Source: Paracoccaceae bacterium
GTDB lineage: Bacteria > Pseudomonadota > Alphaproteobacteria > Rhodobacterales > Rhodobacteraceae
Direction: 5' to 3'
Assembly: GCA_026989355.1 (NCBI GenBank)
Contig: JALSJM010000008.1
Location: 1-64,000 of the forward strand
DNA: 64,000 nt
Below the pieces are notes generated by a model that saw only the letters and a program-made list of their open reading frames with translations, did not search any database and had not been told where the DNA came from. A program made the translations under genes and the position numbers. Every line of letters starts with the position of its first letter. The stretch's first letter is position 1. Below are positions 19,964 to 28,296 of this stretch, one piece after another.

Positions 19964-21582
19964 GGTTCCGGGGCGCCGTCGCGCAGCAGCTTCCAGTTGA
20001 TCGCATCAAGCAGCGCCTCGAAGCTGGCATCAACGATATTGGCCGAAACCCCGACGGTGGACCACACCCGGCCCTGCCCGTCCTCGCTGTCGATGGTGAC
20101 ACATGTGACCGCATCGGTTCCGCCATCGGTGATACGCACCTTGAAATCGACAAGGCGCATGTCATCGATATAGCACTGGTAGGGCCCGAGATCCTTGGCC
20201 AGCGCGCGGGCCAGCGCATTGACCGGGCCGCAATCGTTGCCCTGCGCGTCCAGGCTTTCGGAAACCGACAGCTTCTTTTCGCCCGCCACCTTCACCACCA
20301 CCACCGCTTCGGAAAAGCTGCGCATCCGGTCGTGCCGGTTCTTGCGCCGCTCCACGGTGACCTTGTAGCGCTTGACCTCGAAGAATACCGGCAGCAGGCC
20401 CAGTTCGCGCCGCGCCAGAAGCTCGAAGCTGGCCTGTGCCCCGTCATAGGAGTAGCCCTGCGATTCGCGCTGCTTCACGGACTCGAGGATGCGCGCCAGC
20501 GCCGGATCGTCCTTCTTCACCTCGATTCCCGCCTCGGCCAGACGGCGGCGCAGGTTGGACTGCCCGGCCTGATTGCTCATCGGGATGATGCGTGCATTGC
20601 CCACAAGGGCAGGATCGACATGTTCATAGGTTGCCGGATCCTTGAGGATCGCGCTGGCATGCAGCCCCGCCTTGTGGGCAAAGGCACTGGCCCCCACATA
20701 GGGGGCCGATTTCTCCGGCACGCGGTTCAGGATCTCGTCAAGCATGCGGGAGGTCCGGGTGAGCCCGGCAAGGGCTTCGCGCGAAACGCCGGTTTCGAAA
20801 CGCCCGGCATAGGGCTCTTTCAGCAGAAGCGTCGGGATCAGGCTGACCAGATCGGCATTTCCGCAACGCTCGCCAAGCCCGTTCAGCGTTCCCTGTATCT
20901 GGCGCGCCCCCGCATCCACCGCAGCCAGCGTATTGGCCACTGCATTGCCGGTGTCGTCATGGGTGTGAATGCCCAGATGGCTTCCCGGAATGCCTGCCGC
21001 AATCACCTCGGCGGTGATACGGCCTATCTCGCCCGGCAGGGTGCCGCCGTTGGTATCGCACAGCACCACCCAGCGGGCACCGGCCTCGCAGGCAGCCCGG
21101 CAGCAGGCAATCGCGTAATCCGGATCGGCCTTCCAGCCATCGAAGAAATGCTCGGCATCGAACAGCGCCTCGCGCCCCGCGGCCACCACATGCGCCACCG
21201 ATGCGCGGATGTTCCCGATGTTTTCCTCAAGGGAAATGCCGAGCGCCCTTTTCACATGGAAATCATGCGTCTTGCCCACCAGACACACCGCCCCGGTGCC
21301 CGCATTCAGCACTTCGGCCAGCACATCGTCGTTTTCGGCCGAGCGCCCGGCGCGTTTTGTCATCCCGAAGGCCACCATGCGCGCACGGGTCTCGGGGGCT
21401 GCGGCGAAAAAGGCGCTGTCGGTGGGATTGGCCCCGGGCCAGCCGCCCTCGATGTAATCGACCCCGAGCGCATCGAGCATGCGCGCGATTCGCCGCTTCT
21501 CGCCAAGCGAAAAGCGCACGCCCCAAGTCTGCTGACCATCGCGCAGCGTGGTATCATAGATGTAAATCCGCTCACGCCCCAT
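19960..21582 (-). CDS. cimA: (R)-citramalate synthase
   Basis: 540 residues from ATG 21582, preferred over an ATG six bases upstream because AAAGGG is seven bases before it. It is a DRE-TIM metallolyase of the CimA/LeuA family: DTTLRDGQQTWGVRFS at the N-terminus, the metal-binding HTHDDTGNAVANTL, ERCGNADLVSLIPTL, and a C-terminal LeuA-type allosteric domain (LVDFKVRITDGGTDAVTCV). It condenses pyruvate and acetyl-CoA for isoleucine synthesis. It lies between cysS and a squalene-synthase-like gene. Confidence 0.93.
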   Translation of the reverse strand: MGRERIYIYDTTLRDGQQTWGVRFSLGEKRRIARMLDALGVDYIEGGWPGANPTDSAFFAAAPETRARMVAFGMTKRAGRSAENDDVLAEVLNAGTGAVCLVGKTHDFHVKRALGISLEENIGNIRASVAHVVAAGREALFDAEHFFDGWKADPDYAIACCRAACEAGARWVVLCDTNGGTLPGEIGRITAEVIAAGIPGSHLGIHTHDDTGNAVANTLAAVDAGARQIQGTLNGLGERCGNADLVSLIPTLLLKEPYAGRFETGVSREALAGLTRTSRMLDEILNRVPEKSAPYVGASAFAHKAGLHASAILKDPATYEHVDPALVGNARIIPMSNQAGQSNLRRRLAEAGIEVKKDDPALARILESVKQRESQGYSYDGAQASFELLARRELGLLPVFFEVKRYKVTVERRKNRHDRMRSFSEAVVVVKVAGEKKLSVSESLDAQGNDCGPVNALARALAKDLGPYQCYIDDMRLVDFKVRITDGGTDAVTCVTIDSEDGQGRVWSTVGVSANIVDASFEALLDAINWKLLRDGAPEP

Positions 21583-21691
21583 CTTCATGCCCTTTCATCT
21601 GGCAGAAACGCTTCCGGAAAGGAAAAGGCGGCCCACCCCGAACGGAAGTCGGCCAACCCCCTGCCGCGCCGGCCCTCTGCCTGCCGGGCGC

Positions 21692-23101
21692 TCACTCCAT
21701 TTCCTCCAGCCGCGCCGGATCGAAACCGGGGGCGAGCTCCCACCTGGCCCCCTCGGCCGTATCCCTGACGATCACGCCGGCGGCGGCAAAACCATCGCGC
21801 AGGCGATCGGCGCGGGCAAAATCGCGCGCGGCACGGGCCTCGGCGCGGGCCCGAAGCAGCCGCTCGATCCGCTCCGCCACATCCGCATCGGCCCGCGGCG
21901 CACCGGCCCAGCCGCCCATCCCCTTGTTCAGAAGGCCCAGCAGCCCGGCCGAGGCCCGCAGGGCCGGTCCGTTTCCCGCTCCGGCAAGCTCATGCAGCCG
22001 TGCCAGCGCACCGGGGGTATTGAGATCATCCGCAAGCGCTTCCAGCACGCCCGGATCCACCTCTTGCGGCGGCTTTCCCTCTGCCCTTGCCTCTGCCATT
22101 TCTCCGGCAAGCCCGCGCCATCGGCGCAAGACAGACTCTGCCTCGCGCGCCTTCTTCGCGGTCCAGTCCATCGGCTTTCGATAATGCGTCGAAAGCATCA
22201 CGAAGCGGATCACCTCGCCCGGAATTCCCTGATCGAGCAGATCACGCACGGTGAAGAAATTGCCCAGGCTCTTTGACATCTTCTTCCCCTCAACCTGCAA
22301 CATTTCATTGTGCAGCCAGTATCTTGCAAAACATTCTTCACCTTTTCTGGCCGGGTGCGCACAGCAGCTTTGCGCAATCTCGTTTTCATGATGGGGGAAT
22401 ATCAGGTCATTCCCGCCACCGTGTATGTCGAAGCGATCTCCCAGCAGTTCGTATGACATGGCCGAACACTCGATATGCCAGCCCGGACGCCCCCGCCCCC
22501 AGGGGCTTTCCCAGCCCGGCTGATCCGGTGTCGAGGGCTTCCAGAGCACGAAATCCATCGGGTTCCGCTTGTAGGGCGCAACCTCTACCCGCGCGCCGGC
22601 GATCATGTCATCCACCGAACGCCCCGAAAGCGCGCCGTATTGCGGATAGCTTTCCACCGCGAACAGCACATGCCCCTCGGCCGCATAGGCATGGCCGCGC
22701 GCGATCAGCGTCTCGATCATGCGCAGCATGGCGGGGATGTAATCCGTGGCGCGCGGCATCGCATCGGGCTTCAGCGCACCAAGCGCTGCCATGTCGTCAA
22801 GAAACCACTGTGTCGTTTCCGCGGTGATCCCGCCGATCGCACGCCCGGTTTCTGCGGCACGGGCGATGATCTTGTCATCCACATCGGTGAAATTGCGCAC
22901 ATAGGTCACGCGGCCCGCGCCATAGACATGACGCAGCAGGCGATAGAGCACATCGAACACCAGCACCGGGCGCGCATTGCCCAGATGTGCCCGGTCATAC
23001 ACCGTGGGCCCGCAGACATACATCCGCACATTGGCCGGATCGAGGGGCCTGAAAAGCTCCCGGCGGCGGGTTTTCGTGTTGTGAAACCTGATTTCGACCA
23101 T
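21692..23101 (-). CDS. cysS: cysteinyl-tRNA synthetase
   Basis: 469 residues. CysRS landmarks: zinc ligand cysteine in [14 protein letters not shown]-type motif [45 protein letters not shown] and KMSKSLGNF. It charges tRNA-Cys in the cytoplasm. The ribosome site GAGGATGAACC is followed by the ATG at 23101. An upstream 16-codon cysteine-rich reading frame with its own promoter elements (23188-23272) suggests attenuation control. Confidence 0.97.
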
Positions 23102-23187
23102 GGTTCATCCTCGGGAGGGCCGTGCCGCCCGGGCTTGTCGGTTTCGCGGTTGATCGGAAACGGAAGGAAGGGCCCGGGTGACGATTG

Positions 23188-23238
23188 TCAGCCGGTCATG
23201 CAGATGCAGCAGATGCGGATCGCCCCTTGCCTGTTCAT
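23188..23238 (-). CDS. putative cysteine-rich leader peptide of the cysS operon
   Basis: A 16-codon frame, MNRQGAIRICCICMTG, ends 86 bases before cysS. Three of its codons are TGC (Cys-Cys-Ile-Cys). AGGA is placed seven to eight bases upstream of the ATG and could be a ribosome site. The same bases are part of a candidate -10 element, which would make the transcript leaderless. After its stop, GCCCGGG at 23172-23178 can pair with the GCCCGGGC palindrome at 23127-23134, and CCCG beside the cysS ribosome site offers an alternative partner. Stalling at cysteine codons when Cys-tRNA is low would favour cysS expression. The logic fits; the evidence is sequence only. Confidence 0.55.
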   Translation of the reverse strand: MNRQGAIRICCICMTG

Positions 23239-23244
23239 GGCGCG

Positions 23245-23272
23245 ATCCTAGCATCCGCGCCGCAGAAGGCAA
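23245..23272 (-). promoter_or_regulatory. candidate promoter of leader peptide/cysS operon
   Basis: Minus strand TTGCCT (23267-23272), 16-base spacer, TAGGAT (23245-23250). Predicted start falls at or next to the A of the leader ATG (23238), as known for some leaderless attenuator peptides in alphaproteobacteria. Confidence 0.45.
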
Positions 23273-23523
23273 GCCCCGAACGGTGGCTCTGGACAGCCGG
23301 AACCGGCGCAACCGCCCCCACGGAAAGCGTCATGGTCCCTGCCGGGAAGGGCGCCGGCAATGCAGGCTGCATTCCCGCCCTTCTTTCTTTCCATGCCGTG
23401 CGCGTGCTATTCACCGGAAATGGAAACGGCGAAACGGGGCGGGCCCCGACACTGAAGAAGCGCCGTTCGCATGATGAGGCTTGCAGGGAGCATCGCCGGA
23501 ACGTGTTTGAATCGGCAGGAGAC

Positions 23524-24075
23524 ATGACAGCAACGGACATGCCGACGGGGGGCATGCAGGGCTGGTTGCGCCACTGGATCCAGGGCGCGCTTCGCGAATG
23601 GCTGGCGGGCGATCAGCTTCTGATGCCCTGGAGCTGGGTGCTTCTGCTGGCCATTGCCGGCTATGGGGCGATCCGGCTGCTGGAGCGGCACCGCAACCGG
23701 AGACACAGCATCCCTGCCCGCCCCGCATCCACCCGGGATCCGTCCGCGGGTGCCCTGTCCGCTGGCGCCGGGCCTTCCGTGGGCGCCGGCGGCAACGCCT
23801 GGCAGAAGGGCCTGTCCCCCGAACGGCGAGGCATAGCCCGCAGCATCCCCCGCAGCAGCGCCATCGCCGCCGGCGGGCGGGGAAAGGAAGAGGCCCCGTC
23901 CTGTCCGCGCTGCGGCGGCCCGGTAACGCGCCGCAGGGTTGAACCCGCGCCCGTATACGGCCCGGTGCACATCCGCGAAAGCTGCGGACGCTGCACCTGG
24001 TTCACCGAAAAGGTGCGCCTTGCCCGACGGTCCGGCGATCACCCGGGCGCGCCCGGCGCCGCCGGGTTCAGGTGA
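23524..24075 (+). CDS. membrane-anchored zinc-ribbon-like protein, unknown
   Basis: 183 residues from ATG 23524 (GCAGGAGAC upstream). One hydrophobic helix near residues 36-50 (MPWSWVLLLAIAGYGAI), a poorly conserved arginine/glycine/serine-rich linker, and a C-terminal CPRCGGP...CGRCTW pair typical of a zinc ribbon (two C-x2-C knuckles 25-30 residues apart). No family name recognised. Its last eight bases overlap the end of the convergent rpiR gene. Confidence 0.55.
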   Translation: MTATDMPTGGMQGWLRHWIQGALREWLAGDQLLMPWSWVLLLAIAGYGAIRLLERHRNRRHSIPARPASTRDPSAGALSAGAGPSVGAGGNAWQKGLSPERRGIARSIPRSSAIAAGGRGKEEAPSCPRCGGPVTRRRVEPAPVYGPVHIRESCGRCTWFTEKVRLARRSGDHPGAPGAAGFR

Positions 24076-24964
24076 ACTTGCGGAACAGGCGGGTCTTGTC
24101 GAACATGCTTTCAAGGCGCTCCATGCGTTCGCGGGTCTGCGCCCAGGTGCGCTCCTGCACCGCCGCCAGCACCGTTTCCAGCAACAGCATCAGCACCACG
24201 TTGCTGTCCCAGGCCGAGGGCACCGCGATGCGACAGCTCAGCACATGGTCGGCATGCGCTGCCACCGGCGACCCCCACTGATCGGTAAACAGCACGATCC
24301 GCGCCCCCTGCCCCCGTGCCATTTCCGCCAGCTTCAGCGTGGCGTTTTCATAGCGGCGCACATCGAACACCACCAGCACATCGCCCGGCGCCATGTTCAG
24401 CAGATCATGCGGCCAGGCATTGGCCAGCGACTGAATCAGCGAAACCCCCGGGCGCACCACCTGCATGTGCAGGAACAGGTAATCTGCCAGCGCCCGGGTA
24501 ATGCGCCCGCCCACCACATGCACCCCGTGCGCGGTATCGGCCAGCAGATCGGCCACCGCATCGAAACTTGCCGTGTCCACCTGTGCAAGCGTCTGGCGGA
24601 TATTGCCGATCACCGCCTCGGTGAAGCGGTTCAGGATATGCTGATCGGGGGCTTTCGCGGCCCAGGTATCGTGCTTGTCGATCGGATTCGAGATCCTTTC
24701 CCCGAGTTCGCGGCGCAGTTCGGCCTGGAACTCGGGGAAACCGCGAAAGCCCAGTTTCTGCACCATGCGCACCACGGTCGGCGTCGAAACCCCGGCCTGC
24801 GCGGCCACCGCGGTAATGCTGGAAAGCCCTGATACCGGATAGTTTTCAAGCAGCGAGCCGGCAAGCTGACGCTCGGCGCGGGTCAGTTCGTCAAACCGCT
24901 GCTGCAGCCTTTCGGCAATGGTCTTTTGCGGATCTCTTTCACACACGCCCTGCACGCCCTGCAT
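24068..24964 (-). CDS. MurR/RpiR-family transcriptional regulator
   Basis: About 298 residues from ATG 24964; an in-frame ATG at 25015 sits only six bases from the predicted start point and is possible. An N-terminal RpiR HTH (about residues 12-88: LTRAERQLAGSLLENYPVSG, STPTVVRMVQKLGFRGFPEFQ) is followed by a SIS effector-binding domain (about 125-260, with VHVVGGRITRALADYLF and VVFDVRRYENATLKLAEMA). SIS domains usually bind phosphosugars, but RpiR members near TRAP and amine-catabolic genes sense other ligands. It is transcribed divergently from the 25.3-33.5 kb island and is its probable regulator. Confidence 0.85.
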   Translation of the reverse strand: MQGVQGVCERDPQKTIAERLQQRFDELTRAERQLAGSLLENYPVSGLSSITAVAAQAGVSTPTVVRMVQKLGFRGFPEFQAELRRELGERISNPIDKHDTWAAKAPDQHILNRFTEAVIGNIRQTLAQVDTASFDAVADLLADTAHGVHVVGGRITRALADYLFLHMQVVRPGVSLIQSLANAWPHDLLNMAPGDVLVVFDVRRYENATLKLAEMARGQGARIVLFTDQWGSPVAAHADHVLSCRIAVPSAWDSNVVLMLLLETVLAAVQERTWAQTRERMERLESMFDKTRLFRKFT

Positions 24965-25013
24965 GGAACGGAACATCCGGGGGCCGGCCCGGCAGGCGAT
25001 ACCGGCACCGGGC

Positions 25014-25077
25014 ATCCGGTTCTGGAATATATACCGTCAAGCGCTCCGGTGTTGAAGAAATTATTTCAGAACCGGAT
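25014..25077. promoter_or_regulatory. 11-bp inverted repeat and operator-like palindrome in the rpiR divergent region
   Basis: ATCCGGTTCTG (25014-25024) and CAGAACCGGAT (25067-25077) are perfect inverted repeats 42 bases apart. Between them lies GAAATTATTTC (25057-25067), an 11-bp near-perfect palindrome of the type bound by RpiR proteins. It separates the two divergent -35 elements. Confidence 0.6.
25028..25056 (-). promoter_or_regulatory. promoter of rpiR
   Basis: Minus strand TTCAAC (25051-25056), 17-base spacer, TATATA (25028-25033). Confidence 0.5.
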
Positions 25078-25105
25078 TGACAGGATGCCCGAACATGAAG
25101 AATTC
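25077..25105 (+). promoter_or_regulatory. promoter of the catabolic island
   Basis: Consensus -35 TTGACA (25077-25082), 17-base spacer, GAATTC (25100-25105). Its first base overlaps the inverted-repeat arm ending at 25077; the transcript would have about 160 bases of leader before the first gene. Confidence 0.5.
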
Positions 25106-25271
25106 TTTTCAGGAACGGTTCGCATGCGAACGGATTCGCATATCCGGGCGCCGGATGCAGGCAGATGCAGAACTGCCGGGGGAAGGCCGGGGGGAGGCCG
25201 GAAAAAGCGCCGCAACAGGGCGCTGGCTGGCACGCCCCCTTCGCCCCCCGGAAAGAAGCGGAAAACGGGGG

Positions 25272-26135
25272 ATGATGATGCCGTCACGTCAGACCGCCAG
25301 CGAAGATGCCCCGGCCCGGCTTGTGCGGGCGGGGGGGCACGCGCCCGTGGTCCTGTCGTGCGAACACGCCGCCAACCGGATACCGGAGCGCCATGCCGGC
25401 CTCGGGATCGGCGATGCGGTGCGCCAGAGCCACGTGGCCTGGGATCCCGGGGCCGCGGCGGTGGCCCGCCACCTGGCCGAGGCGCTCGACGCGCCGCTTG
25501 TCGAAAGCACCGTTTCGCGCCTGGTGCACGACTGCAACCGCCCGGCCGCATCGGCGGAAGCCATGCCGGAAAAAAGCGAAATCCACGAGATCCCCGGCAA
25601 CCGCAACCTGAGCGAAGCCGAACGCGCAAGGCGCGCGCGCGAGGTTTACCAGCCCTTCCATGCGCTGCTGGCCGAAACCATTGCCGCCGCACGGCAGCGG
25701 TGCCGGCGTGCCAATGCGCCGGCACTGGTCACCATTCACAGCTTCACCCCGATCTATGATGCAAGGCCGCGCAGCGTCGAGATCGGCATCCTGCACGATG
25801 CCGACAGCCGCCTGGCCGATGCCATGCTGACAACCACCAGCGCCCATACTCCCCTGAAGGTGGCCCGCAATGCCCCCTATGGCCCCGAAGACGGCGTGAC
25901 GCACACGCTGAAGCGCCACGCGCTGCCGCTCGGCCTGCCCAACGTGATGATCGAGATCCGCAACGATCTGATCGCCACCCCCCGACAGCAGGCCGATATC
26001 GCCCGGATGCTGGCCACCTGGCTGTCCGAGGCGCTGACGCGAACCGACGGGGCGGAGAAAGACATCGGGAAGGATGACAGAGCGCGGGAAGGCGCGGCCG
26101 CCGGCACCCTTCGCAGGGGGGCAGAGGCAGGATGA
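25272..26135 (+). CDS. N-formylglutamate amidohydrolase-like hydrolase
   Basis: About 287 residues. Three consecutive ATGs (25272, 25275, 25278) follow a GGGGG run; the frame is open further upstream but without family similarity. VVLSCEHAANRIP, SRLVHDCNRP, E-x-x-R-NLS-x-AE and TIHSFTP motifs identify the FGase family of zinc-dependent amidohydrolases that release glutamate from N-acyl- or gamma-acyl-type substrates. It is the first gene of the TRAP/ligase/dehydrogenase island and overlaps dctQ by four bases. The true substrate may be a glutamyl amide rather than formylglutamate; see findings. Confidence 0.85.
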   Translation: MMMPSRQTASEDAPARLVRAGGHAPVVLSCEHAANRIPERHAGLGIGDAVRQSHVAWDPGAAAVARHLAEALDAPLVESTVSRLVHDCNRPAASAEAMPEKSEIHEIPGNRNLSEAERARRAREVYQPFHALLAETIAAARQRCRRANAPALVTIHSFTPIYDARPRSVEIGILHDADSRLADAMLTTTSAHTPLKVARNAPYGPEDGVTHTLKRHALPLGLPNVMIEIRNDLIATPRQQADIARMLATWLSEALTRTDGAEKDIGKDDRAREGAAAGTLRRGAEAG

Positions 26136-26770
26136 TGAAGCTGGCCATCCTCTATGTGCGGGCGATCGACCGCTTCAACCACCGCCTCGGGCGGATCGTG
26201 ATGTATGGCATCTTCGTGATGATCGGAGTGCTGCTGTGGTCGTCGGTTTCGAAAACCTTCTTCCGTCCCTCGCAATGGACGCTGGAGATCGCCCAGTTCG
26301 CACTGGTGGCCTATTACATGCTGGGCGGTCCCTATTCGATCCAGCTCGGCGCCAACGTGCGCATGGATCTTTTCCATCACCGCTGGAGCAGCCGCACCAG
26401 GGCTGCGGTCGATTCCTTCACGGTGCTGTTCCTGGTCTTCTATCTCGGGGTAATGCTCTACGGGGCGCTCACCTCGACCGCTTACGCGCTTGGCTATTTC
26501 GGTGACGAACCCTTCCGCTTCTGGCGCGAACTGGCCTGGGCCTTCCTTTCGGGCGGGCCGGAGGGGGCATCGGAGATGCTCGGACATCTCGAGCGTTCGC
26601 CCACGGCCTGGCGGCCCTATCTGTGGCCGGTCAAGGTGATCATGACGCTCGGCATATTCCTGATGCTTCTGCAGGCGCTTTCCGAACTGATCAAGGATAT
26701 CGCCACGCTGCGCGGCATTGATCTGCGCAGCGATGCGCCTGCGGCGCGGCACGGGGCGGAGGACGCCTGA
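26132..26770 (+). CDS. dctQ: TRAP transporter small permease (DctQ type)
   Basis: 212 residues with four transmembrane segments (about 20-40, 60-80, 95-120 and 168-188), larger than the minimal DctQ, with an extended loop after the third helix (GGPEGASEMLGHLERSPTAW). It forms the membrane complex with DctM for sodium-driven substrate uptake from the periplasm. ATG overlaps the hydrolase stop (ATGA), and it is followed by dctM with a one-base overlap. Confidence 0.92.
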   Translation: MMKLAILYVRAIDRFNHRLGRIVMYGIFVMIGVLLWSSVSKTFFRPSQWTLEIAQFALVAYYMLGGPYSIQLGANVRMDLFHHRWSSRTRAAVDSFTVLFLVFYLGVMLYGALTSTAYALGYFGDEPFRFWRELAWAFLSGGPEGASEMLGHLERSPTAWRPYLWPVKVIMTLGIFLMLLQALSELIKDIATLRGIDLRSDAPAARHGAEDA

Positions 26771-28296
26771 TGTCGTACGAAGCCATTGCCCTGTTCATGT
26801 TCGCCAGCATGATGCTGATGCTGTTCACCGGCCAGCGGGTGTTCGGCGCGATCGGTGCGGTGGCGGCGGCCGCAGCACTGATGCTGTGGGGCACCGGCGG
26901 CAGCGACATTCCCTTTTCTGCCGCCATGAAACTGATGAAATGGTATCCGCTGCTGACCCTGCCGATGTTCATCTTCATGGGCTACGTGCTGTCCGAAAGC
27001 CGCATCGCCGACGATCTTTACCGCATGTTCCATGTATGGATGGGCAGCGTTTCCGGAGGGCTGGCAATCGGCACCATCGGGCTGATGGTGCTGATCAGCG
27101 CGATGAACGGGCTTTCGGTGGCCGGCATGGCGATCGGCGCCACCATCGCCCTGCCCGAACTGCTGAAACGCGGCTATGACAAGCGCATGGTCACCGGAGT
27201 GATCCAGGCGGGCAGTTCGCTGGGCATTCTGGTGCCCCCCTCGGTGGTGCTGGTGCTTTACGCGATGATCGCGCGTCAGCCGGTGGGCCAGCTGTGGCTG
27301 GCCGGGGTGATTCCGGGGCTGATGATGGCGGGCATGTTCATGCTCTATATCTGGCTGCGCTGCCGCATCAATCCGTTTCTCGGCCCCACGCTCGGCCCCG
27401 AGGAACGCCGGCAATATGATCGCGACAGGCCGCTCGAGATCGATCTTGCAGTCTGGGCCTTCGTGGCGGGGGCGGTCGCGTTTCTGGTGCTGTTGAAACG
27501 CGATGCCATCGCCCTGCCCGATGGCCAGGCAGCCGGACTGCTGCTGCTGCTGGCGCTGGTCGGCGCCGGCGCGCTGGTCTGGCGCTGGCGGCGGCGCATC
27601 GGCTGGCGCATTACCGTTCACATGGCCGAGAAATACCACCTTCTGCTGGCCGGCCTGCTGCCGCTGGTGATCTTCTTCTCGATGATGATCCCCTTCGTGA
27701 ACGGCTGGACATCGCTGACCGAAAGCTCGGCCCTCGGTGCGGTGGTGGCCCTTGCCGCTGCGGTGATGAAAGGGCGCATGACACGCGAGGTGTTCGAGAA
27801 CGCGGTGCGCAAGACGCTCGGCATCACCTGCATGTTCATGTGGATCATCGTAGCCGCCATGGGATTCGGCGCGGTGTTCGACGGGCTGGGCGCGGTGCGC
27901 GCCATCGACAACCTGTTTACCGAACAACTGGGCCTCGACCCCTGGGTGATCCTGATCCTGATGCAGCTGTCCTTCCTGCTGATGGGCACCTTTCTTGACG
28001 ATACCGCCATGCTGGTGATCGTGGCGCCGCTCTACATCCCGCTGGTGCACGCCCTCGGCTTCGATCTGATCTGGTATGGCGTGCTCTACACGATCACCAC
28101 CCAGATCGCCTACATGACGCCACCCTTCGGATACAACCTGTTCCTGATGCGGGCCATGGCGCCGAAGCAGATCACCCTGCGCGATATCTATGCCTCGATC
28201 TGGCCCTTCGTGCTGATCATGGTGCTGGCGCTGACCATCATCATGCTGGTGCCTGAATTGGCCCTGTGGCTGCCGCATCTGATATATGACAAGTGA
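26770..28296 (+). CDS. dctM: TRAP transporter large permease (DctM type)
   Basis: 508 residues, about 12-13 hydrophobic segments, longer than the usual 425-430 because of a central insertion (residues about 190-290) including a charged stretch RINPFLGPTLGPEERRQYDR. The family signatures GSSLGILVPPSVVLVLY and LLMGTFLDDTAMLVIVAP are present. It is the transport channel, coupled to DctQ and the periplasmic DctP. A C5 hairpin separates it from dctP. Confidence 0.93.
   Translation: MSYEAIALFMFASMMLMLFTGQRVFGAIGAVAAAAALMLWGTGGSDIPFSAAMKLMKWYPLLTLPMFIFMGYVLSESRIADDLYRMFHVWMGSVSGGLAIGTIGLMVLISAMNGLSVAGMAIGATIALPELLKRGYDKRMVTGVIQAGSSLGILVPPSVVLVLYAMIARQPVGQLWLAGVIPGLMMAGMFMLYIWLRCRINPFLGPTLGPEERRQYDRDRPLEIDLAVWAFVAGAVAFLVLLKRDAIALPDGQAAGLLLLLALVGAGALVWRWRRRIGWRITVHMAEKYHLLLAGLLPLVIFFSMMIPFVNGWTSLTESSALGAVVALAAAVMKGRMTREVFENAVRKTLGITCMFMWIIVAAMGFGAVFDGLGAVRAIDNLFTEQLGLDPWVILILMQLSFLLMGTFLDDTAMLVIVAPLYIPLVHALGFDLIWYGVLYTITTQIAYMTPPFGYNLFLMRAMAPKQITLRDIYASIWPFVLIMVLALTIIMLVPELALWLPHLIYDK

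Follow-up and report, generated by a model that had tools for sequence, protein, structure and literature searches.

Cysteine and isoleucine codons in a leader of cysS and cimA in Rhodobacteraceae: a probable ribosome-mediated attenuator

The cysS-cimA locus and its leader

The window, a stretch of DNA of 64,000 nucleotides, carries two adjacent genes that, from knowledge of their families, we take to be cysS and cimA (Table 1). Reading the minus strand from 23272 to 23101, we found a promoter-like TTGCCT-16-TAGGAT pair (P1), 6 nt, an open reading frame (ORF) of 16 codons, a hairpin that includes its stop codon and a pyrimidine tract, followed by cysS and then cimA. Codons 10, 11 and 13 of the ORF (MNRQGAIRICCICMTG) encode cysteine, and codons 7, 9 and 12 encode isoleucine. 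An initial annotation of this DNA had proposed a cysteine-rich leader of 16 codons before cysS, with a promoter placed for a start at or beside its ATG; both are present where it had put them, and a distance of 6-7 nt from -10 box to ATG recurs in relatives. The alternative GCCCGGG pairing that it placed next to the cysS ribosome site is there as well; the second copy lies upstream of the GAGG and not on it. The stop-codon hairpin and the three isoleucine codons had been omitted. The window leader diverges from typical relatives; its genus is represented by one further genome in the sample, which has a leader, MTKNATICICIIC, at the corresponding position.

Table 1. Features of the cysS-cimA locus in the window
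Feature	Position	Strand	Remark
-35 box TTGCCT of promoter P1	23267..23272	minus	sequence; best -35/-10 pair of the scan
-10 box TAGGAT of P1	23245..23250	minus	16-nt spacer from -35 box; 6 nt to leader ATG
Leader ORF MNRQGAIRICCICMTG	23188..23238	minus	ATG at 23238, TGA ending at 23188; 16 codons
Hairpin A:B, CCGG-C-UGAC-AAUC-GUCA-C-CCGG	23174..23195	minus	includes leader stop codon
Arm B, CCCGGGC	23172..23178	minus	foot of hairpin A:B; common to A:B and long-range stem B:C
Pyrimidine tract CCCUUCCUUCCGUUUCC	23156..23172	minus	3' of hairpin; site of proposed U-run, weak in the window
Arm C, GCCCGGG	23128..23134	minus	pairs with B; ends 26 nt before cysS start codon
GAGG, Shine-Dalgarno-like, of cysS	23109..23112	minus	sequence
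cysS, cysteinyl-tRNA synthetase, 469 aa	21692..23101	minus	homologs in 59/61 family genomes
cimA, citramalate synthase family, 542 aa	19960..21588	minus	directly downstream of cysS

A cysteine-rich reading frame is conserved upstream of cysS

Among the 59 matched genomes of the host's family (Rhodobacteraceae), 49 loci offered at least 200 nt upstream of cysS, and 36 of these contained an ATG-started ORF of 5-20 codons with at least two cysteine codons (shuffled sequences: mean 2.4, maximum 7; reverse strand: 4). ORFs with at least two cysteine and at least two isoleucine codons were found at 35 of the 49 loci, compared with 0.3 in shuffles. For the window itself, the 230 nt preceding cysS were shuffled 3000 times with dinucleotide content preserved; five shuffles contained an ATG ORF of 5-20 codons with at least three cysteine codons, and none contained an ORF with three cysteine and three isoleucine codons.

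Comparison of nearest neighbours showed that between codons -9 and -3 of the leader 50 of 106 single-change codons were synonymous, where 21% would be expected without coding constraint, or 33% if all changes were transitions (p = 1e-9 and 0.002, respectively). In the last two codons only 1 of 62 was synonymous and the amino acids varied freely; changes there fell on the third base 11 times versus 73 and 57 times on the first and second, and such keeping of the third base is expected of a hairpin arm. By this pattern of changes, the front of the leader is evidently read as protein code and its end kept as an RNA arm. Most of the family members sampled keep a cysteine-rich, leaderless-looking leader with alternative pairings in front of cysS, and its codons change in the manner of coding sequence. 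The initial annotation had named unconserved leader codons as a refutation; cysteine codons are conserved as a class, their exact positions shifting between relatives.

Curation of the leaders was done in part by eye, with the upstream sequence in view, and drew on candidates that had one cysteine codon or more; isoleucine was no criterion, and the demand for cysteine biases the cysteine frequencies upward. A curated leader was missing at 5 of the 49 Rhodobacteraceae loci examined with flanks, three of which (L020, L035 and L074) have a linked cimA, and in 6 of 20 further upstream regions. The stop codon was TGA in 58 of 62 Rhodobacterales leaders and TAG in 9 of 10 leaders from Hyphomicrobiales, where, judged by eye, it goes with an altered partner arm. 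A second leader in the genome of the window (TGCTGCATGTGCATGAC, at G000:C3) was rejected, as the stretch looks, on visual inspection, like a piece of an unrelated gene.

Relation to published leaders

A related element, uORFC-8-2, is described by Brewer et al. 2021 (PMC8632094), whose section on it reports 145 examples upstream of Rhodobacterales cysS, calls it exclusive to cysS of that order, and defines it as an AUG-started short ORF with tandem cysteine codons, UGC being preferred and the pair usually standing at codons 14-15. The same section proposes ribosome-mediated attenuation with a terminator and describes two stems, the first holding the cysteine codons, with a U run at the 3' end as an intrinsic terminator (PMC8632094). 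The window element likewise lies upstream of a Rhodobacterales cysS, starts with AUG and has tandem cysteine codons (codons 10-11); it is very likely a divergent member of uORFC-8-2. The idea that Rhodobacterales control cysS by a cysteine attenuator has therefore been in print since 2021 (PMC8632094).

In our set, unlike the usual position given in PMC8632094, the first codon of the cysteine pair is codon 8, 9 or 10 in 50 of 57 occurrences. As possible counterparts of the two published stems we find a hairpin at the leader end and a pairing of leader start with tract, and where uORFC-8-2 has a U run, the window has the hairpin but a weak tract (CCCUUCCUUCCGUUUCC). The uORFC-8-2 section of PMC8632094 is silent on isoleucine codons, cimA and a leaderless promoter. 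Relative to that section, what is added here is the leaderless promoter, relatives in Hyphomicrobiales (and Hyphomonadaceae), and an excess of isoleucine over cysteine codons together with cimA.

In the titles and abstract openings that we searched, with subscription journals and supplements outside the search, nothing linked this leader to isoleucine or cimA. The enterobacterial ilvG leader mixes isoleucine, valine and leucine codons. The polycysteine ORFs of mycobacteria belong to another phylum, regulate target genes other than those of the cysS leader and have, to our knowledge, no run of isoleucine codons. These mycobacterial ORFs are likewise described as leaderless, cysteine-rich and cysteine-responsive attenuators of operons (Canestrari et al. 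2020, as cited in PMC9094748). Codons for more than one amino acid (Ile/Val/Leu) also share one leader in the ilv leaders described for Actinobacteria (PMC1262725); those amino acids belong to one pathway, whereas cysteine and isoleucine share none. The trpL attenuator of Sinorhizobium meliloti is also alphaproteobacterial, and the ATG of its 14-aa leader forms the 5' end of the RNA, but it concerns tryptophan only and controls a biosynthetic gene and no synthetase gene (PMC7298713).

Isoleucine codons and linkage to cimA

The leaders of 85 Rhodobacteraceae loci, all of them with cimA either linked or not ruled out, comprise 1063 codons, of which 325 encode isoleucine and 231 cysteine; for comparison, cysS itself has 4.2% isoleucine and 1.1% cysteine. 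The product of cimA starts an isoleucine route. Of 48 leader-bearing loci examined with flanks, 45 have cimA following cysS in the same orientation, the rest being two short contigs and G045, and 226 of 236 family genomes had a cimA match at E <= 1e-90 (74-82% identical among the matches listed, the window itself excepted). The 45 leaders with cimA verified downstream held a mean of 3.78 isoleucine codons, with at least two in 44 of 45, and 16 leaders from genomes without cimA held none (nine), one (four) or two (three). The two groups differ (Mann-Whitney p = 4e-9, with the unlinked G045 placed in the cimA-less group and kinship uncorrected). By codon content, the leader reads as much as an isoleucine leader as a cysteine leader, and the initial proposal that cysteine supply tunes cysS (and cimA) is therefore incomplete, as it leaves out the likelier link, isoleucine codons for cimA.

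The low-isoleucine leaders without linked cimA stem from three lineages, all of which kept cysteine. In G045, cimA lies 770 kb away and the leader is MIWRC; by eye, no isoleucine leader of its own precedes the unlinked cimA. In genus g101, cimA is absent from 3/3 genomes and the leaders are MDWICCLCRA (twice) and MEWICCPC. In Hyphomonadaceae, the 13 leader-bearing genomes lack cimA (best match 31-34% identical), with leaders such as MFVRAFSPCCCACCCR. No leader was seen in three further genomes without cimA (G011, G047 and G139). Two families, f108 and f46, have a linked cimA and leaders with both isoleucine and cysteine, for example MKTAATIWCICCTIIIS.

These data bear on a rival account, in which the leader is a cysteine-only attenuator of cysS, as in the published reading of uORFC-8-2 (PMC8632094), and the isoleucine codons serve an AU-rich unstructured run or an RNA fold. 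Several observations fit it. The isoleucine at codon -3 in Rhodobacteraceae is encoded by ATT in 72 of 77 cases, though cysS prefers ATC, which hints at an RNA-level reason at that codon. In families f91 and f30 cimA comes immediately after cysS, and yet the candidate leaders hold 0-2 isoleucine codons, for example METCSQRCCATGRRITG, and five leaders (L141, L143, L144, L145 and L147) are isoleucine-rich (3-4 codons) in genomes where cimA was not found. The absence of cimA from the genomes concerned (G098, G110, G145, G166 and G179) is unproven because their contigs break off within cysS or soon after it; we excluded these genomes from the cimA-less group while their leaders remain among the 85; a true absence would count against the rule linking isoleucine to cimA. 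Against the cysteine-only account, both isoleucine codons are used at codon -7 (ATT 35, ATC 22) and at codon -8 (ATT 10, ATC 35, ATA 1), so that what stays constant there is the amino acid and not the base sequence, and the three lineages without linked cimA retain cysteine with few isoleucine codons. We regard this account as a real but minor possibility. Across the loci, cimA does not always bring isoleucine codons, while runs of isoleucine appear to need cimA in the cases that can be resolved. The leader codons would match the regulated amino acids, cysteine for cysS and, in most cimA-linked leaders, isoleucine for cimA.

The candidate leaders of f91 and f30 (L221, L237, L263 and L290) share CC or CGAC followed by a GR.[IT]-like end and are immediately preceded by promoter-like sequence.

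Alternative RNA pairings around the leader stop codon

We refer to the leader start as Z, to the last codons plus the stop as arm A and to the ribosome site as D; arms B and C are those of Table 1. In the window, the A:B hairpin has a folding energy of -12 kcal/mol (z -2.5), a stability matched by 4 of 200 shuffles. In alignment A1, which comprises 57 of 71 candidate sequences picked by eye, 82% of A:B cells were paired, versus 28-48% when the arms were slid. Column counting gave A:B weak covariation with the innermost pair and none beyond shuffles without it, so that its support comes from the pairing level, an arm-swap test and the way in which third bases are kept in the last two codons. 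For the long-range stem B:C, 90.2% of cells were paired in the 57 sequences (slid versions 30-48%) and 19 cells were changed on both sides, versus a shuffled mean of 10. None of 500 shuffles was as good on pairing, on both-side-changed cells or on covariation score, and 22 of 500 equalled the stem in how many pairs showed changes in both partners. The compensatory base changes that the initial annotation had advised looking for are present in the covarying stem B:C.

The arm-swap test used 78 loci; the loci set from which 82 of 89 were used left out seven odd loci. A sequence's own partner was better than swapped ones in 65 of 78 cases for A:B (p = 4e-11) and in 57 of 78 for B:C (p = 2e-4). 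Besides these two and the pairing of leader start with tract described below, nine pairings were compared, and in none did the own partner do significantly better; C:D was neutral, while A:D, Z:D and Z:A did worse than with swapped partners, in two cases at p = 3e-4 to 4e-4. Since controls reach such extremes and kinship is uncorrected, p-values near 1e-4 are no proof on their own, and B:C rests on covariation as well. Ribosome-masked folding of single sequences gave no uniform picture. As a separate observation, leader codons 1-6 are complementary to the U-rich tract after arm B, for example in L034 and L093, and here the own partner was better in 56 of 78 cases (p = 1e-7).

Our own covariance model of the region from hairpin to arm C (R1) matched just upstream of cysS in 47 of 61 family genomes. 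Just upstream of cysS lay 44 of the 47 best rows; 30 rows elsewhere had E values of at least 2.8e-4, as expected of chance. The model matches the window by construction, the window being among its 57 sequences. A second match in the same genome (G000:C1) was rejected because it sits inside a long open frame, which resembles a cation-efflux gene. Rfam gave only three unrelated sub-threshold hits in window positions 20000-28000 and none at gathering score in L073, L010 and L104.

That arm B is complementary both to A in the leader and to C downstream follows the logic of an attenuator, and on the comparative evidence A:B and B:C would be mutually exclusive pairings of the trp type. Alternatively, the leader ribosome might decide between an open and a closed cysS ribosome site with no terminator involved. 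This translational form of attenuation would suit the nearness of arm C to the cysS ribosome site and the scan for terminator-like sites, which found none in the window, where the tract is only CCCUUCCUUCCGUUUCC, a poor U-run. It is at odds with the C:D hairpin over the ribosome site, which we rejected as a conserved Rhodobacteraceae element: it showed no covariation, a swap p of 0.99 and little excess stability (mean z -0.36; window 0.00). It also sits poorly with terminator-like sites in 11 of 14 other, hand-picked Rhodobacteraceae, nine of them at the stop-codon hairpin (in L060 the site is elsewhere and in L150 at another hairpin). We consider translational attenuation unlikely.

Promoter-like sites

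In 52 of 87 family leaders the best -10 element sat 6-7 nt from the ATG, versus 83 of 870 shuffled stretches, in a scan that gave real sequences, and not shuffles, a half-point bonus for TG. In the window the -10 box of P1 stands 6 nt from the ATG, so that transcription would begin on the ATG or next to it and yield a leaderless RNA. The -35 region of 89 family loci has the majority bases CTTGGC, each in 44-84%.

A second promoter-like site (P2), with a TT[T/C]C-like box, a spacer of 16-17 nt and TGnTA(AGCC), lies between leader and cysS at 54 of 89 loci. It overlaps arm C, for example in L020, L073 and L142, and by eye occurs also at several loci without a leader. P2 is a possible second, unattenuated promoter of cysS in relatives, and would count against an attenuator since cysS expression from it would bypass the leader. 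In the extreme, the conserved block could be mainly a P2 promoter region for cysS and the leader a relic of little effect, a reading for which the frequency of the site and its presence at leader-less loci speak. Between leader and cysS of the window, no P2-like site was recognised, and without that -10 the window still keeps the leader and B:C; moreover, the leader is under coding-type selection and B:C covaries. We therefore hold the relic reading to be quite improbable. That the ORF arose by chance and has no function is hardly credible: the divergence of the window leader from typical relatives would allow it, and it is contradicted by the shuffle test, the coding-type changes, the B:C covariation, the covariance-model matches and the presence of MTKNATICICIIC at the corresponding position in the second genome of the genus.

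Leaders beyond Rhodobacterales

At 14 named Hyphomicrobiales loci, an ORF with at least two cysteine codons was found in 7 (shuffled 0.6) and an ORF with cysteine and at least two isoleucine codons in 10 (shuffled 0.3). The ten curated leaders come from Stappia, a Xanthobacteraceae bacterium, Rhizobium, Bradyrhizobium, Ensifer, Mesorhizobium, Devosia and Phyllobacterium, hosts that we take to belong to Hyphomicrobiales; tandem cysteine codons occur in none of the ten. In the swap test these ten sequences favoured their own partner in 4/10 for A:B, 5/10 for B:C and 9/10 for leader start with tract (p = 0.03). Five of them (L093, L104, L116, L123 and L127) have a further hairpin and U-rich tract after arm C and before cysS, which suggests a four-segment, trp-like layout.

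Hyphomonadaceae, of which 30 of 39 matched loci were examined, had an ORF with at least two cysteine codons at 13 of the 30 (shuffled 1.4), and 13 loci had a curated leader. This family is now placed in Hyphomonadales and was formerly counted with Rhodobacterales; because of that former placement, the published uORFC-8-2 set may include it. At class level, we looked upstream of 69 of 278 matched genomes (30 loci plus 39 of 40 regions), L200 and L209 being misread or too short. On these ORF counts, leaders of this kind do occur outside Rhodobacterales.

A model for attenuation of the cysS-cimA operon

We propose, with a probability of roughly 0.7, that the cysS-cimA leader is a ribosome-mediated attenuator that senses cysteine and isoleucine for a mixed operon. 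RNA polymerase would start at the leader ATG, and a ribosome would read the short ORF during transcription. When charged tRNA-Cys or tRNA-Ile is scarce, the ribosome would stall on the cysteine or isoleucine codons, its footprint would mask arm A, and B, left free, would pair with C so that cysS and cimA are expressed. With both charged tRNAs plentiful, the ribosome would finish and leave, A:B would form beside the pyrimidine tract, and expression would be lowered, most likely via a premature stop of transcription.

The comparison supports several elements of this attenuator model: apparent coding selection on the ORF, the A:B and B:C pairings, the leaderless geometry, the cysS-cimA linkage and fewer isoleucine codons without cimA. 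We infer from these the stalling, the direction of the switch, termination rather than a translational block, and the sensing of both amino acids. Very probably the leader lets a ribosome sense cysteine shortage and adjust the genes behind it, and comparison with relatives suggests that isoleucine shortage is sensed too. The weakest step is the off-switch, the tract of the window being poor in U. Simple termination at the tract also fails to explain the conservation of arm C, because arm C is transcribed after the tract; a pausing polymerase, a Rho-dependent step or an effect on translation may be involved.

More broadly, we see an even chance that one leader integrates two metabolically unrelated signals for one operon, an old alphaproteobacterial pairing, with cysteine codons for cysS and isoleucine codons for cimA, and that lineages losing cimA pruned isoleucine and kept cysteine. 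If so, leader codon content would track the gene content of the operon, and a two-amino-acid sensor would have been built and pruned codon by codon. The lineages with cimA, with cimA moved and with cimA lost would then form a natural series for testing the evolution of attenuators. The model would also suggest a reason for the puzzling linkage of cysS to cimA. In enterobacteria, threonine deaminase is inhibited by cysteine, an excess of which can leave the cell short of isoleucine; the route through citramalate synthase avoids the threonine deaminase step. As an observation apart from the leader, many groups of Alphaproteobacteria (L076-L127 and L203-L228) have cysS and cimA near each other on the same strand, also at loci where no leader is seen.
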